A DNA stretch of 64,000 nucleotides, from assembly GCA_023522315.1 (NCBI GenBank), contig JAHCSU010000233.1, positions 37,017 to 101,016 of the forward strand. Direction: 5' to 3'. A program made the position numbers and the translations under genes. Positions 38,658-52,560 of the stretch are shown one piece after another. The notes beneath the pieces are model-generated. The model did no database searches and was not told the origin of the DNA. It saw only the letters and a list, made by a program, of their open reading frames with translations. The stretch is from Nostoc sp. CCCryo 231-06 (lineage in GTDB: Bacteria; Cyanobacteriota; Cyanobacteriia; Cyanobacteriales; Nostocaceae). Each line of letters starts with the position of its first letter. The stretch's first letter is position 1.

Positions 38658-39227
38658 ATGATAAGTCAGCATTTACAAGCTGCTACACTCGCAGTGCAAG
38701 TATCGCAGCAATATCTAAAAGAGGGAACTGCACTTGATGCGATCGCTGAACTACAAGATTTTATAGATATGCGTCCAGATGCGCGTGAAGTAAGGAAAGC
38801 GTTGGCAGTCAAGCTGGTTTATCAAGGTTACTTGTATGATGAAATCGAAACAATTCTAGACGTATCACGAGGGTCAATCACGGGTTGGAAGCAAGCCTAT
38901 GAGGAAACTGGAATTGATGGGCTGCGACTGAACTACAAAGGGAGAAAAAGCTATCTGAATGCCGAACAATTTCAAGAGGTCTTAAGTTGGCTGCAAACAC
39001 AGGATTGTTGGGAGCTTGGGGAACTAGAGTATCAATTAGCCTTTGAGTATGACATAGTTTATGACTCAAAACAAAGCTACTACGACCTGTTCGATAAAGC
39101 AGGAATCAGTTGGAAAAAAACCACAAAGCTAAATCCTAAAGCTGACGAGAATGCTGTTGCTGTAAAAAAAAAGAGATTGAAACATTGCTGGCAAACCGCC
39201 GGGAGGAAATTGAAACAGGAAAATTAA
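38658..39227 (+). CDS. IS630 transposase, N-terminal ORF (HTH)
   Basis: EIETILDVSRGSITGWKQAYEETGIDGL; out of frame with the next ORF near A9 at 39164..39172. Confidence 0.88.
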   Translation: MISQHLQAATLAVQVSQQYLKEGTALDAIAELQDFIDMRPDAREVRKALAVKLVYQGYLYDEIETILDVSRGSITGWKQAYEETGIDGLRLNYKGRKSYLNAEQFQEVLSWLQTQDCWELGELEYQLAFEYDIVYDSKQSYYDLFDKAGISWKKTTKLNPKADENAVAVKKKRLKHCWQTAGRKLKQEN

Positions 39228-39769
39228 GAGTACTGCTAATTGATGAGTGTCATTTAATGTGGGGAGATTTAAGTGGCTACGTATGGGGAAAAAGTGATCA
39301 AGAAATAGCGGTGAGAGTGATTAATGAACGAGAAAAGCAGACATACTATGGAGCAATTGACTATCTTGAGGGAAAATTAGTTCTCAAAGCTTATGATGCG
39401 GGAAACTCAAAAAATACCATTGACTACCTACAATACTTGCTAGCCGACTCTCCCGACCAGCAATTACTAATTTTTTGGGATGGTGCTAGTTACCACCGTT
39501 CCAAAGAAATTCGAAGTTTTTTGGACTCTGTTAATCAAAGTTTGCCAACCGAGCAATGGAAAATATATTGTGTTCGCTTTGCCCCCAATTGCCCAATACA
39601 AAATCCAATTGAAGATATCTGGTTACAAGCCAAGACATGGGTTAGACGTTTTTGTGCTTTGGTTCCAACATTTTCTCATTTAAAGTGGATGTTTGAGTGG
39701 TTTATTAGACACACTACCTTTGATTTCGACACTTTACAGATGTACGGAGCTTATTCAAAAATCAAATAG
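39185..39769 (+). CDS. IS630 transposase, C-terminal DDE ORF
   Basis: LLIDECHLMWGD, LLIFWDGASYHRSKEI, APNCPIQNPIEDIWLQAKTWVR. Confidence 0.9.
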   Translation: MLANRREEIETGKLRVLLIDECHLMWGDLSGYVWGKSDQEIAVRVINEREKQTYYGAIDYLEGKLVLKAYDAGNSKNTIDYLQYLLADSPDQQLLIFWDGASYHRSKEIRSFLDSVNQSLPTEQWKIYCVRFAPNCPIQNPIEDIWLQAKTWVRRFCALVPTFSHLKWMFEWFIRHTTFDFDTLQMYGAYSKIK

Positions 39770-46021: not shown

Positions 46022-48166
46022 TTAAGGGGTTAAAAAGTCTAAATGGTTTCCTGGTTGGGCACGCAAATCCTCTACTGTCCCCTGAATTTGTAACTTGCCT
46101 TGATTAAGTAAAACAATCCAATCAGCACGGGTAATTACTCTAGGACGGTGGCTAATCAGGATCGTGGTTTTACCTTGGCGGTGCAACAACAGTTGATCTA
46201 AAACTTGAGCTTCACTAACTGGATCGAGTCCAGCAGTTGATTCGTCTAAAATCAAGATTGGTGGATCGTTAACAATAGCTCTTGCTAAAGCCAGCCTTTG
46301 CCGTTGTCCACCAGAAATATTTGACCCAAATTCACCTAATACAGTTTGATATTTTTCAGGTAGTCTACTAATAAAATCATCTGCGTCAGCAATTTGGCAA
46401 GCCTTGACAATTTGATCAAAGGTGAGGTGAGGAGAACCTAAGCGGAAGTTTTCAATAATTGTGCGACTCCAAAAATGAGCGTCTTGAGGAACCAGAGCAA
46501 CTTGTTGCCGCAAACAATCAAGAGCTAGGTCTTGCATATTATAAATGCCAAAGCGAATATTACCAGAGTTAGGTGTATATAATCCGGCAATCAGTTTGGC
46601 AAGAGAACTTTTTCCACAGCCGGATGTACCAATTAGGGCAACAACTTTACCGCCAGGAATTGTAATGGAAAAATCTTCCAGTAGCTCTAGCCTGCCGGCG
46701 TAGTGAAAGTTTAGGTTTTTGCAAATAATATCACCATCACTAGGAATTTTAGCAAAGGGTTTGGTACTATCGCTTGGAGTTTCAGGTGTGGAATCGATAA
46801 CTTCTGTTAAGCGTTCCGTGGCAGTTTTGGCACGCATGAATTCATCTATAAATCCAATCACAGTACCGATTAATGCCAAAAAGTTCCCATTCATCCCGTT
46901 AAATGCTAGCAGTTGACCGATGCTGAGTTCTTTACCAATAACTAGGACGCTGCCGAAACCGATCAAACTAACGCTGCCAATAGCATAAACTAACCCAGAA
47001 AAGGTGCTATTAATAATTCCAATCTGAACTGTGCGAAATGTTATGTTTGAGAGCCGACCAAATCTGTTCTGAAATTCTTCCCAAAATTGAGGAGCAGCAG
47101 TAGTAGTTTTGAGTGTCAGCGCTCCTTTAAAGCTTTCAACGAGAACACCCTGGTTTTCCGCGTCTAAGACCAACATACTTCTGATTTTTTGTTGAAGTGT
47201 CGGCAAGAAAACCACCGTAGATAAACTCATGACAATAGCAACAACGACGGCAACAAAGGTGAGTTTCCAGCTATAGAACACCATGAAACCTAAAGAAATC
47301 AGTCCGATAAAGAATTGGCTAGGCAGACTGATAACTGCTTGAGCAACTAGCTGATTAATTTGTTGAATATCTTGCAATCTGCTAACAATCTCGCCACTAC
47401 GACGTGATTCATAGTAAGCCAGAGGCAACCGCAAGATTGCCCTGGCAAATTCTAGAATTAGCCCTAACTCAAGCCGTTGAGCAAAATTGGCAATCAGGTT
47501 AGATTGAACTAGTTGCAGACTACTTGACACCAAATTCATCACCACAACCGCAATAATTACACCAGCAAGAAGCTGGGTATCACCTCGAACTAGTACATCA
47601 TCCGTTAGAATTTGAACCAGGAAAGGAGAGGTTAACGAAAGCAGACCGATAAATATAGCACAGAGAAAAGCCTCGAATATTATGCCCCCATAAGGCAATG
47701 CCCGCCGCGCAAAGCGCCAAAGACCATTGACTTTATCATCAGGTTGAGCATAAAAGCGAACCGAATCTGGCTCTAGTAAAAGCATGACTTGATCTGACCA
47801 AGCCTCTATTAATTCATTTTTAGAGACATAACGGATGTTAAAGGCTGGGTCAGCAATTACATATTTTTTGCCTTTCTGACCATACAAAACAACCCAGTGG
47901 TAGCCTTTCCAGTGAATGATTGCTGGCAGTGGTGCTTGGTTCATTCGGTCTAATATTTCTTTTGATGCCCTGACCGAACGGGCATTGAAACCAAGTGCCT
48001 CGGCTCCTCGCCTCAATCCCAACAATGTTGTTCCAAGTTGCCCGGTGCCTACCGCTTCCCGGATGCGATTTAGTGTAAAGTTACGTCGATAATGTTTAGC
48101 CACGGAAGCAAGACAAGCAGCTCCACAATCTTCTTCACTATGTTGTGCAACAACTTGGTATTTCAT
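46022..48166 (-). CDS. Peptidase C39-containing ABC exporter (PCAT)
   Basis: EDCGAACLA catalytic Cys and GYHWVVL His; TM domain; Walker A GTSGCGKSS; signature NISGGQRQRLALARAI. Confidence 0.95.
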   Translation of the reverse strand: MKYQVVAQHSEEDCGAACLASVAKHYRRNFTLNRIREAVGTGQLGTTLLGLRRGAEALGFNARSVRASKEILDRMNQAPLPAIIHWKGYHWVVLYGQKGKKYVIADPAFNIRYVSKNELIEAWSDQVMLLLEPDSVRFYAQPDDKVNGLWRFARRALPYGGIIFEAFLCAIFIGLLSLTSPFLVQILTDDVLVRGDTQLLAGVIIAVVVMNLVSSSLQLVQSNLIANFAQRLELGLILEFARAILRLPLAYYESRRSGEIVSRLQDIQQINQLVAQAVISLPSQFFIGLISLGFMVFYSWKLTFVAVVVAIVMSLSTVVFLPTLQQKIRSMLVLDAENQGVLVESFKGALTLKTTTAAPQFWEEFQNRFGRLSNITFRTVQIGIINSTFSGLVYAIGSVSLIGFGSVLVIGKELSIGQLLAFNGMNGNFLALIGTVIGFIDEFMRAKTATERLTEVIDSTPETPSDSTKPFAKIPSDGDIICKNLNFHYAGRLELLEDFSITIPGGKVVALIGTSGCGKSSLAKLIAGLYTPNSGNIRFGIYNMQDLALDCLRQQVALVPQDAHFWSRTIIENFRLGSPHLTFDQIVKACQIADADDFISRLPEKYQTVLGEFGSNISGGQRQRLALARAIVNDPPILILDESTAGLDPVSEAQVLDQLLLHRQGKTTILISHRPRVITRADWIVLLNQGKLQIQGTVEDLRAQPGNHLDFLTP

Positions 48167-48506
48167 TTCAGACTCCAGTACCCAATAGTATCGTAAAAAA
48201 ACTTAAAAAAATAGCAGGGTTTCATCCCTGCGTGGTTAATAATTTGACCAACAGTTTAATTTTACTAAGTAACGGAGCAAAAAAAAAATCAAACTATGTT
48301 ATGTAATGTAAAATTGATTAAATTTGCTAGTAGTAAGCGGCTCCAACCGCTTACTACAAAACTTTAATTATTCACGCCTGCTTACTTATCACTACAAATC
48401 AAATTTTAGCAGGGAGGATAGGTTTATTCCCAGGCTCTTTAACAGTCCTGACACTGAACTTGTTCCTACTTTGATAGTATTCGTTTTCCCAACTTTTGTA
48501 GTTGAT

Positions 48507-48653
48507 TTAATTGTTTGTTTCTTTCTTTGCTCCTTTTTTATCAATTGTCACTCGACTATAAGAATAAGAAACCTTGCTTTCACCACCACACAGGGTTACT
48601 TCTTGATCTTCAGTCAGGGATATAAACATTGGGAAGATTTGAGTGCTTTTCAT
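48507..48653 (-). CDS. Candidate double-glycine leader peptide (48 aa), not in ORF track
   Basis: MKSTQIFPMFISLTEDQEVTLCGG/ESKVSYSYSRVTIDKKGAKKETNN; just upstream of the C39 exporter on the same strand. Confidence 0.72.
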   Translation of the reverse strand: MKSTQIFPMFISLTEDQEVTLCGGESKVSYSYSRVTIDKKGAKKETNN

Positions 48654-49310
48654 GATTCTAATTAACCTCAGATGTTAATTAACAAGTTTTCAAATTGATG
48701 GGAAGGTGCATTAACTGAAAGATAAGCAGAGGTAGCACCTACCAAAATGGCTATATCTTTTCAGCTATTTTTTGCAAAATAGTAAATTTTTATCCATATT
48801 CCTCTTTAATCACTCTCGAATGAAACAATTACAGCTTAGAGCTAAATGCCGAAAGTTCAGATATAGCTAGGGATTAGATACCCGTATATTGATATAAACC
48901 CCGAAACTAAGGCAAATAAACAGAACCCTAAATATAAAAAGTTTTGAGTTTTACTATCTATGCCGAGAGTGATTAAACATGGATATGAGCGATTTCTCAA
49001 ATAGCAGCGCTTAGTTCTCTACTTTACTGTTCAAGGTGAGCAGTATCTTTGGCAAAATTATTAAGTAAGTCCATCAACAGTTGCCTAATAGGAACCGTTG
49101 ATAGACTTTATTAACTTTGTTCAACAAAAGTATGCGGTAGGAATAAACGTAATGCTAGAATAACTGCGATAAGCAACAAAGCTAATGTCTTGCTAGAAAA
49201 TAAACTACCCTGTTGGAGCAGGTTAGTTTGTCTAAGACATTTTACCTCCGTAAAGACGCGGTTGATCGTGTCTTTACGTTTATTCTTCCCCTTCTACTAA
49301 ACCTCATTAT

Positions 49311-49571
49311 TTACTTGGTAGCAGTAAAAACGTTGACAGCGGTTTGGGTGACAGTAGCGCCAGCAGGAGCACCTTCAGCAACGTTGAGAGCTACTTGGTC
49401 TACTGTAGAGCCAACAGGAGCACCAACAAGAACGTTAAGGGCTAGTTGGTTGAGAACGAAGGGCTTAGGCTTAGCGGGGGGTTTGGCGGGCTTGTGCTTC
49501 TTAGGATGAGTACCACCAGACAAACTAGCTTCTTCGGTAACGGTTAAGGTAGTGAACAATGTGCTTTCCAT
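49311..49571 (-). CDS. Candidate double-glycine leader precursor with repetitive core (86 aa)
   Basis: MESTLFTTLTVTEEASLSGG/THPKKHKPAKPPAKPKP then LNQLALNVLVGAPVGSTV-DQVALNVAEGAPAGATV-TQTAVNVFTATK. Confidence 0.75.
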   Translation of the reverse strand: MESTLFTTLTVTEEASLSGGTHPKKHKPAKPPAKPKPFVLNQLALNVLVGAPVGSTVDQVALNVAEGAPAGATVTQTAVNVFTATK

Positions 49572-50524: not shown

Positions 50525-51859
50525 ATGCTCATAGACCCCCAACCAGACTTTCTCCGCCTAGTCCAAAACGACGAATATCTTCCCTCAGTCAGTATATGGA
50601 CGAGGTTGGGAGGAATATTTTTAATTGGAAGTGTTGGCGCTGCCTTCAGCCTTGCCAGTGTCTTTCAATACAATGTAATAGTAAAAGCTGATGCTACCGT
50701 CCGCCCAACTGGAGAAATCCGGTTAGTGCAAGCAGCAGCTGAGGGAACGGTGACAAGCATCAAAGTGAAAGAAAATCAGGTTGTGAAAAAGGGAGATACG
50801 ATCGCTCTCATCGACAATTCCCAATTGCAAACTAAAAAAAGCCAAATACTCGGAACCATCGAACAGAATCAGTTACAACGATCGCAAATTGATGCACAAC
50901 TAAAAGCGCTAAAAAATCAGATGACTGCTGAGTCTAATGCAATCGGACAGGCAATGACATCTGCCAAAGCAGACTTGAGTCGAAACAAAAGAGATTATCA
51001 AGATAGACAAATCACTAGTCTGGCACAAGTACAAGAAATAGAAGCGGGTGTTGAATTAGCCAGAGAGGAACTGAAGCGATATCAGCAGCTGGGAAATACG
51101 GGGGCGATCGCTGCTCTCCAAATTAAAGAAAAAGAACAAGCTTTTAAAGCTGCTACTGCTAGACTCGATAATGCTAAAGCTGCACTCAATCCCAGCGATG
51201 CGAATGTAGCGATCGCACAAGAACGTATTTCCCAAGAGTTGACGAAGGGTGAGTCTACTATTGCTCAATTGAACAAAGAGAAAGAAGAACTCATCAGGCG
51301 TCAAGTTGAAATCCAAAATCAAATTAGCAGCGCTCAACAAGAACTTAAACAAGTTTTTATGGAACTGCAAAAAACTGTAATTCGTACCTCTGAGGCAGGT
51401 ACTATTCTCCAACTAGTATTAAGAAATACTGGACAAGTTGTCCGTGTTGGGGATGCGATCGCTCAAATTGCTCCCAGCGCTGCCCCTGTTGTAATCAAAG
51501 CTCGTGTTTCCTCCTCAGATATTAGTAAAGTGCAGGTGTGTAAAGTCGCACAAGTCGCAAAATGTTTAGAGGGGCAAGTACAAATGCGGGTTTCTGCTTA
51601 TCCGTATCCAGATTATGGCATCCTCAAAGGTGCTGTCAGAGGCATTAGTGCCGATGCCATTACATCTCAGGGTAACGGTAACATTCCAACTGCGCCTTCC
51701 TATGAGGTGACAATTGAGCCAGATAAACTTTATTTAAAAAAGGGCAATAAATCATATTCTATTAAAGCAGGGATGGAAGTTACAGCTGAAATCATTTCCA
51801 AAAAAGAAACCCTACTGACATTTATTCTGAGAAAAGCAAGGCTGCTAACAGATGTGTAG
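50525..51859 (+). CDS. HlyD-type membrane-fusion/adaptor protein
   Basis: Single N-terminal TM, VRPTGEIRLVQAAAEGTVTSIKVKENQVVKKGDTIALID, coiled coil, IAQIAP. Confidence 0.93.
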   Translation: MLIDPQPDFLRLVQNDEYLPSVSIWTRLGGIFLIGSVGAAFSLASVFQYNVIVKADATVRPTGEIRLVQAAAEGTVTSIKVKENQVVKKGDTIALIDNSQLQTKKSQILGTIEQNQLQRSQIDAQLKALKNQMTAESNAIGQAMTSAKADLSRNKRDYQDRQITSLAQVQEIEAGVELAREELKRYQQLGNTGAIAALQIKEKEQAFKAATARLDNAKAALNPSDANVAIAQERISQELTKGESTIAQLNKEKEELIRRQVEIQNQISSAQQELKQVFMELQKTVIRTSEAGTILQLVLRNTGQVVRVGDAIAQIAPSAAPVVIKARVSSSDISKVQVCKVAQVAKCLEGQVQMRVSAYPYPDYGILKGAVRGISADAITSQGNGNIPTAPSYEVTIEPDKLYLKKGNKSYSIKAGMEVTAEIISKKETLLTFILRKARLLTDV

Positions 51860-51972: not shown

Positions 51973-52560
51973 TTAAACCCCGACTGTAGCTTTCTTCCCG
52001 CAGGGTAACTGAGCAAAGTCGGAGCCATCAAAACTCCGAGTTAATAATTGTTTAATATTATATTCTTCAGCATAATTAACAAGCATATCTACTAAGGCTG
52101 TAAACAGTTCAAAAATTTTATCAACTAAGGCAGCAGGCAGAAGGCAGTTTTCCTGCTGCCTTCCTCGATAAATGGGATTAACTTGAAAAGTTCGCCGATA
52201 TAGTTCATAAATTATTTGTCTACAAATCAATGTCTGATCACTCCAATTAAATTTTAGAGAGTCGGTGAAATTTAAAAATAAGTTAAAATTAAAGTATTCT
52301 AAATCTTTTAAAAACCATATCCAATTATTCTCTTCTTCACGGATTTGTTTGTTAAGAATATATTGAATTGGGTGAACTGTTGCTTCTTCTAACCAAACAA
52401 ATTTGTTTAAATTTCCATATCCCATTACAAAAACTGCAAAATAATGAACAAAAGATAATCTTTGTACAAAAGCAATGCTTTGATTTCCTAAAAACTCAAA
52501 GAAGGGTAATTGAGCAAATTTTGCTGATTCTTTTTCAATTAATGTAGACACTTTTTTCAT
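51973..52560 (-). CDS. Uncharacterised protein, possibly haem-oxygenase-like helical fold
   Basis: 195 aa; all-helical-looking sequence; family suggested from memory only. Confidence 0.5.
   Translation of the reverse strand: MKKVSTLIEKESAKFAQLPFFEFLGNQSIAFVQRLSFVHYFAVFVMGYGNLNKFVWLEEATVHPIQYILNKQIREEENNWIWFLKDLEYFNFNLFLNFTDSLKFNWSDQTLICRQIIYELYRRTFQVNPIYRGRQQENCLLPAALVDKIFELFTALVDMLVNYAEEYNIKQLLTRSFDGSDFAQLPCGKKATVGV

Follow-up and report, generated by a model that had tools for sequence, protein, structure and literature searches.

A probably decayed double-glycine precursor gene beside an intact C39 exporter in Nostoc

Group III of the cyanobacterial 'bacteriocin' clusters combines a short-type C39-ABC exporter, an HlyD protein and multiple double-glycine precursors, whose cores vary and many of which lack annotation (PMC3140520). 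Frameshifts and truncations are frequent in the cyanobacterial clusters (Wang, Fewer and Sivonen 2011, PMC3140520). In the EbfG1-4/PteB system of Synechococcus elongatus, small double-glycine proteins leave the cell through a C39 exporter and serve in biofilm formation; amyloid is formed by some of them (PMC4997328, PMC9981879). The group III clusters are the nearest described class to the locus analysed here, and EbfG/PteB is the nearest experimentally tested system. The locus lies in a 64,000-nt stretch of DNA (the window) from Nostoc sp. CCCryo 231-06.

The window contains a frameshift-truncated 48-aa open reading frame with a double-glycine leader, termed pep1 (48507-48653, minus strand). 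The translation given in a preliminary description of this DNA was reproduced exactly, and the gene was absent from the open reading frame track because of its small size. The leader comprises residues 1-24, with a predicted cleavage site after LCGG, and follows a pattern conserved among Nostoc homologues (MKSTQ..PMF.SLTE..E..LCGG). The hydrophobic spacing originally claimed for this GG-terminated leader held at -4 (L), -12 (L) and -15 (F) but not at -7, where the residue is E; pep1 was counted as matching the double-glycine pattern (hydrophobic at -4, -7, -12 and -15) with three of the four positions. Its identification as a double-glycine leader peptide was borne out by the conservation of the leader in Nostoc homologues and by the adjoining C39-ABC exporter. 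CTGAGG, upstream of the pep1 ATG (48666-48671, minus strand), is conserved in DNA alignments and is a possible ribosome-binding site. Neither the window pep1 nor pep2 (the second precursor, below) could be assigned to a family by searches of Pfam, NCBIfam and PHROGs, and an Rfam scan of the pep1 region gave nothing credible. AlphaFold models were of low confidence (pLDDT 59 for pep1 and 50 for pep2), the only interpretable element being a leader helix at pep1 residues 15-21. The 113-aa open reading frame reported antisense to pep1 is present at 48324-48665 (plus strand) and is spurious; it has a TTG start, and stops break its frame in both closest relatives (G031 and G016).

The first homologue search covered 60 related genomes. 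As the preliminary description had anticipated for a genuine gene, homologues with a conserved leader were found in the corresponding position: an 82-aa open reading frame in Nostoc sp. FACHB-892 (G031; 87% identity, E 9e-19) and a 79-aa one in G016 (72% identity, E 1.3e-14), both adjoining the exporter gene as pep1 does in the window. A dozen or so Nostoc loci have a homologue in this position. With presence defined by a strong score and an E value below 1e-10, pep1 was found in 20 of 54 Nostoc genomes; weaker matches in four more were to pep2-like leaders. Outside Nostoc, the 391 sampled Nostocales genomes yielded one weak fragment only. The pep1 precursor family appears to be small and restricted to Nostoc. 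Within it, pN was lower than pS for the leader in most pairs and the tail was under weaker constraint, both on small numbers. The leader appears to be under purifying selection.

The frame that follows the stop was also correctly described as open (48392-48544, minus strand), and the suggestion that a frameshift conceals a longer core agrees with the intact homologues of close relatives, which are 78-84 aa long and have tails matching that frame. In a DNA alignment with six relatives, a single 4-nt tandem duplication (48518-48529, minus strand) accounts for the frame difference, the relatives having AAAGAAAC and the window copy AAAGAAAGAAAC. The disconnected 3' piece (48392-48526, minus strand), which reads KQTIKSTTKVGKTNT...SGLLKSLGINLSSLLKFDL in the ancestral frame, can be aligned with the tail sequence conserved in intact homologues and terminates near the relatives' stop codons; the stretch KQTIKS...SGLLKSLGINLSSLLKFDL matches the relatives' tails. 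Next to the duplication, 12 nt encoding part of QTIKS are missing in five relatives and match KKQTVKS of the more distant G018. This segment is probably ancestral, since it is common to G018. The C-terminal tail scored no higher for amphipathicity than shuffled sequences did, so we do not propose an amphipathic pore-former.

We consider it likely that pep1 is a cargo gene that has decayed within a still working Nostoc double-glycine export cassette, its frame having been broken by the 4-nt duplication. The main uncertainty is whether the duplication belongs to the organism or to the assembly. The draft genome consists of 720 contigs and the window tail is still largely relative-like, as would be expected if the strain truly encoded a full-length pep1 of about 90 aa and the break were an assembly or sequencing error. 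We regard such an error as unlikely: a 4-nt tandem duplication is atypical of base-calling errors, the long neighbouring genes are intact, and the tail has further changes (W to L at its end, one extra codon and a pN/pS above that seen among relatives). Read as a separate piece in the ancestral frame, the window tail shows weaker constraint than its counterpart in the relatives, on small numbers. A real mutation is more likely than a base-calling error. The overlap of the two frames falls on a short AAAG AAAG AAAC repeat, where programmed +1 frameshifting, or reversible slippage in the AAAG repeat (phase variation), might restore the frame; with two repeat units only, no recognised slippery motif and relatives that are plainly in frame, we find this hardly credible.

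The exporter with a C39 peptidase domain expected beside a double-glycine precursor is present at 46022-48166 (minus strand), with pep1 directly upstream of its gene and the same synteny in relatives. This C39 peptidase-ABC exporter (PCAT) is intact at 714 aa (PF03412, E 4e-36), its C39 domain spans residues 2-134 with no N-terminal extension, and Ka/Ks values of 0.13-0.27 indicate that it is conserved. Between pep1 and the exporter gene lies a hairpin with an 11-bp stem and a 6-nt loop (48330-48357, minus strand; GTAGTAAGCGG-6 nt-CCGCTTACTAC), which is single copy in the genome, keeps its stem and varies in its loop across six genomes, and is a candidate mRNA processing or stability element. 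The second double-glycine precursor, pep2 (86 aa; 49311-49571, minus strand), has 17-aa QxAxNV repeats in its core, encoded by a 51-nt tandem repeat at 49329-49430. The two precursor genes are separated by a region holding a 24-nt inverted repeat (48795-48818 and 48964-48987, 145 nt apart) with a genome copy number of one; a multi-copy MITE at 48795-48987 was unsupported, as the inverted repeat is single copy. A 444-aa HlyD-type periplasmic adaptor (50525-51859, plus strand) is divergent from pep1, pep2 and the exporter gene. Many Nostoc loci show the same order: divergent HlyD, an array of one or more pep2 genes, one pep1 and the C39-ABC exporter. A 195-aa open reading frame (51973-52560, minus strand) is a conserved neighbour of HlyD in at least eight Nostoc loci; several relatives have a segment of about 40 aa that is absent from the window version, and a Pfam search with this open reading frame gave no match. 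Farther away, two overlapping open reading frames with helix-turn-helix and DDE_3 domains (38658-39769, plus strand) make up an IS630-like transposase in two frames.

The exporter clade was present in 26 of the 54 genomes, including all 20 that have pep1, a co-occurrence with a Fisher value of 7e-10 when phylogeny is ignored and one frameshifted exporter (G020) is counted. In the pep1 genomes the clade is represented by a copy with at least 86% identity, except that G020 has the frameshifted version, which is that genome's only exporter of the window clade (L033 5122-7264). Ten exporter loci are without pep1. The gene has been cleanly deleted in G008 (about 364 nt), has a nonsense codon inside the leader in G217 and carries a 4-nt insertion at the C terminus in G430. 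The pep1-lacking slots of G028, G025 and G033 contained no alternative precursor, only an apparent decayed pep2 leader fragment. Independent damage and loss of pep1 elsewhere therefore show that it is dispensable, while the exporter, HlyD and pep2 persist.

The same losses bear on whether the 48-aa form could function as a short variant whose core has 24 residues. Its leader and exporter are intact and the leader matches that of G031 residue for residue, but the gene has been damaged or lost outright in other lineages and conserved tail residues are gone from the 48-aa form. Five tail positions (K, V, L, S and L) are invariant across 11 homologues; four invariant positions (K and V of KV; the L, S, L group) lie past the break in every homologue and are therefore missing from the 48-aa product. 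The 24-residue core could still be active, a counterpoint to decay, and we judge a functional short variant to be quite improbable.

The core is collagen-like in a second subtype of pep1, with Pfam Collagen above the cut-off in the G033 copy. Collagen-like pep1 loci were found in 11 genomes, including the window's own; their exporter genes are fragmentary or missing and the precursor is intact, and each of these genomes keeps an intact window-type exporter elsewhere. The orphan in the window's own genome (contig C29; L030 839-1456) has a collagen-like core beside out-of-frame exporter remnants corresponding to residues 1-30 and 668-714. Because orphan loci are without an exporter while the genome has an intact one, the simplest reading of this gene content is that the orphan collagen-like precursors would be exported in trans.

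In intact relatives, the pep1 leader is expected to bind the exporter, whose C39 domain would cleave behind the GG and let the 54-69 aa core exit via the exporter and HlyD. These cores have a Lys/Thr-rich middle and, in nearer relatives, a hydrophobic SLLxFDW end. In the window strain, the duplication would swap the conserved second half of the core for an early stop, and the product, if any, would consist of the leader and about 24 further residues and would probably lack function. The exporter presumably stays intact because other cargo remains, namely the adjacent pep2 and, probably, the collagen-like pep1 paralogue on C29, which is intact. The decayed-allele status of the 48-aa form, the wider family and the cassette are additions to the preliminary description. 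The pep1 locus illustrates decay of a cargo gene alongside conservation of its exporter, and it provides an opportunity to test whether a single C39 exporter handles orphan precursors elsewhere in the genome, some with collagen-like cores.

An apparently undescribed precursor family thus joins a known cyanobacterial export system. The window cassette has the short-type C39 exporter without an N-terminal cNMP domain and the HlyD that define group III, and it shares with these clusters multiple double-glycine precursors, the precursor families being likened by description only; it differs in the divergent placement of HlyD and in having E, not a hydrophobic residue, at -7 of the pep1 leader. The cargo may be antimicrobial or, like EbfG, matrix-forming; an immunity gene was not found. 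The leaders of NHLP and Nif11-type (N11P) precursors resemble that of pep1 in ending in GG, in their E-rich spacing and in the adjacent exporter, but the pep1 leader has just 24 residues, and the NHLP and N11P leader-family models of NCBIfam and Pfam had no match to the window open reading frame or pep2 at E values up to 10. With intact pep1 homologues, the same search matched only models of collagen-like adhesins and, weakly, one RiPP model. Like EbfG/PteB, the cassette pairs small double-glycine proteins with a C39 exporter, a likeness of description rather than homology. A matrix role for the cassette peptides is plausible by analogy, since pep2 cores carry QTAxN repeats; these are amyloid-like by eye, and no Pfam curlin match was found. 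A tentative and rather doubtful extension is a Nostoc-specific secretion of matrix peptides (collagen-like pep1 and QTAxN pep2), in which exporter-less satellite loci would use a single C39 exporter in trans and resident cargo would be repeatedly switched off by small mutations. In contrast to EbfG, pep1 cores are Lys/Thr-rich or collagen-like.
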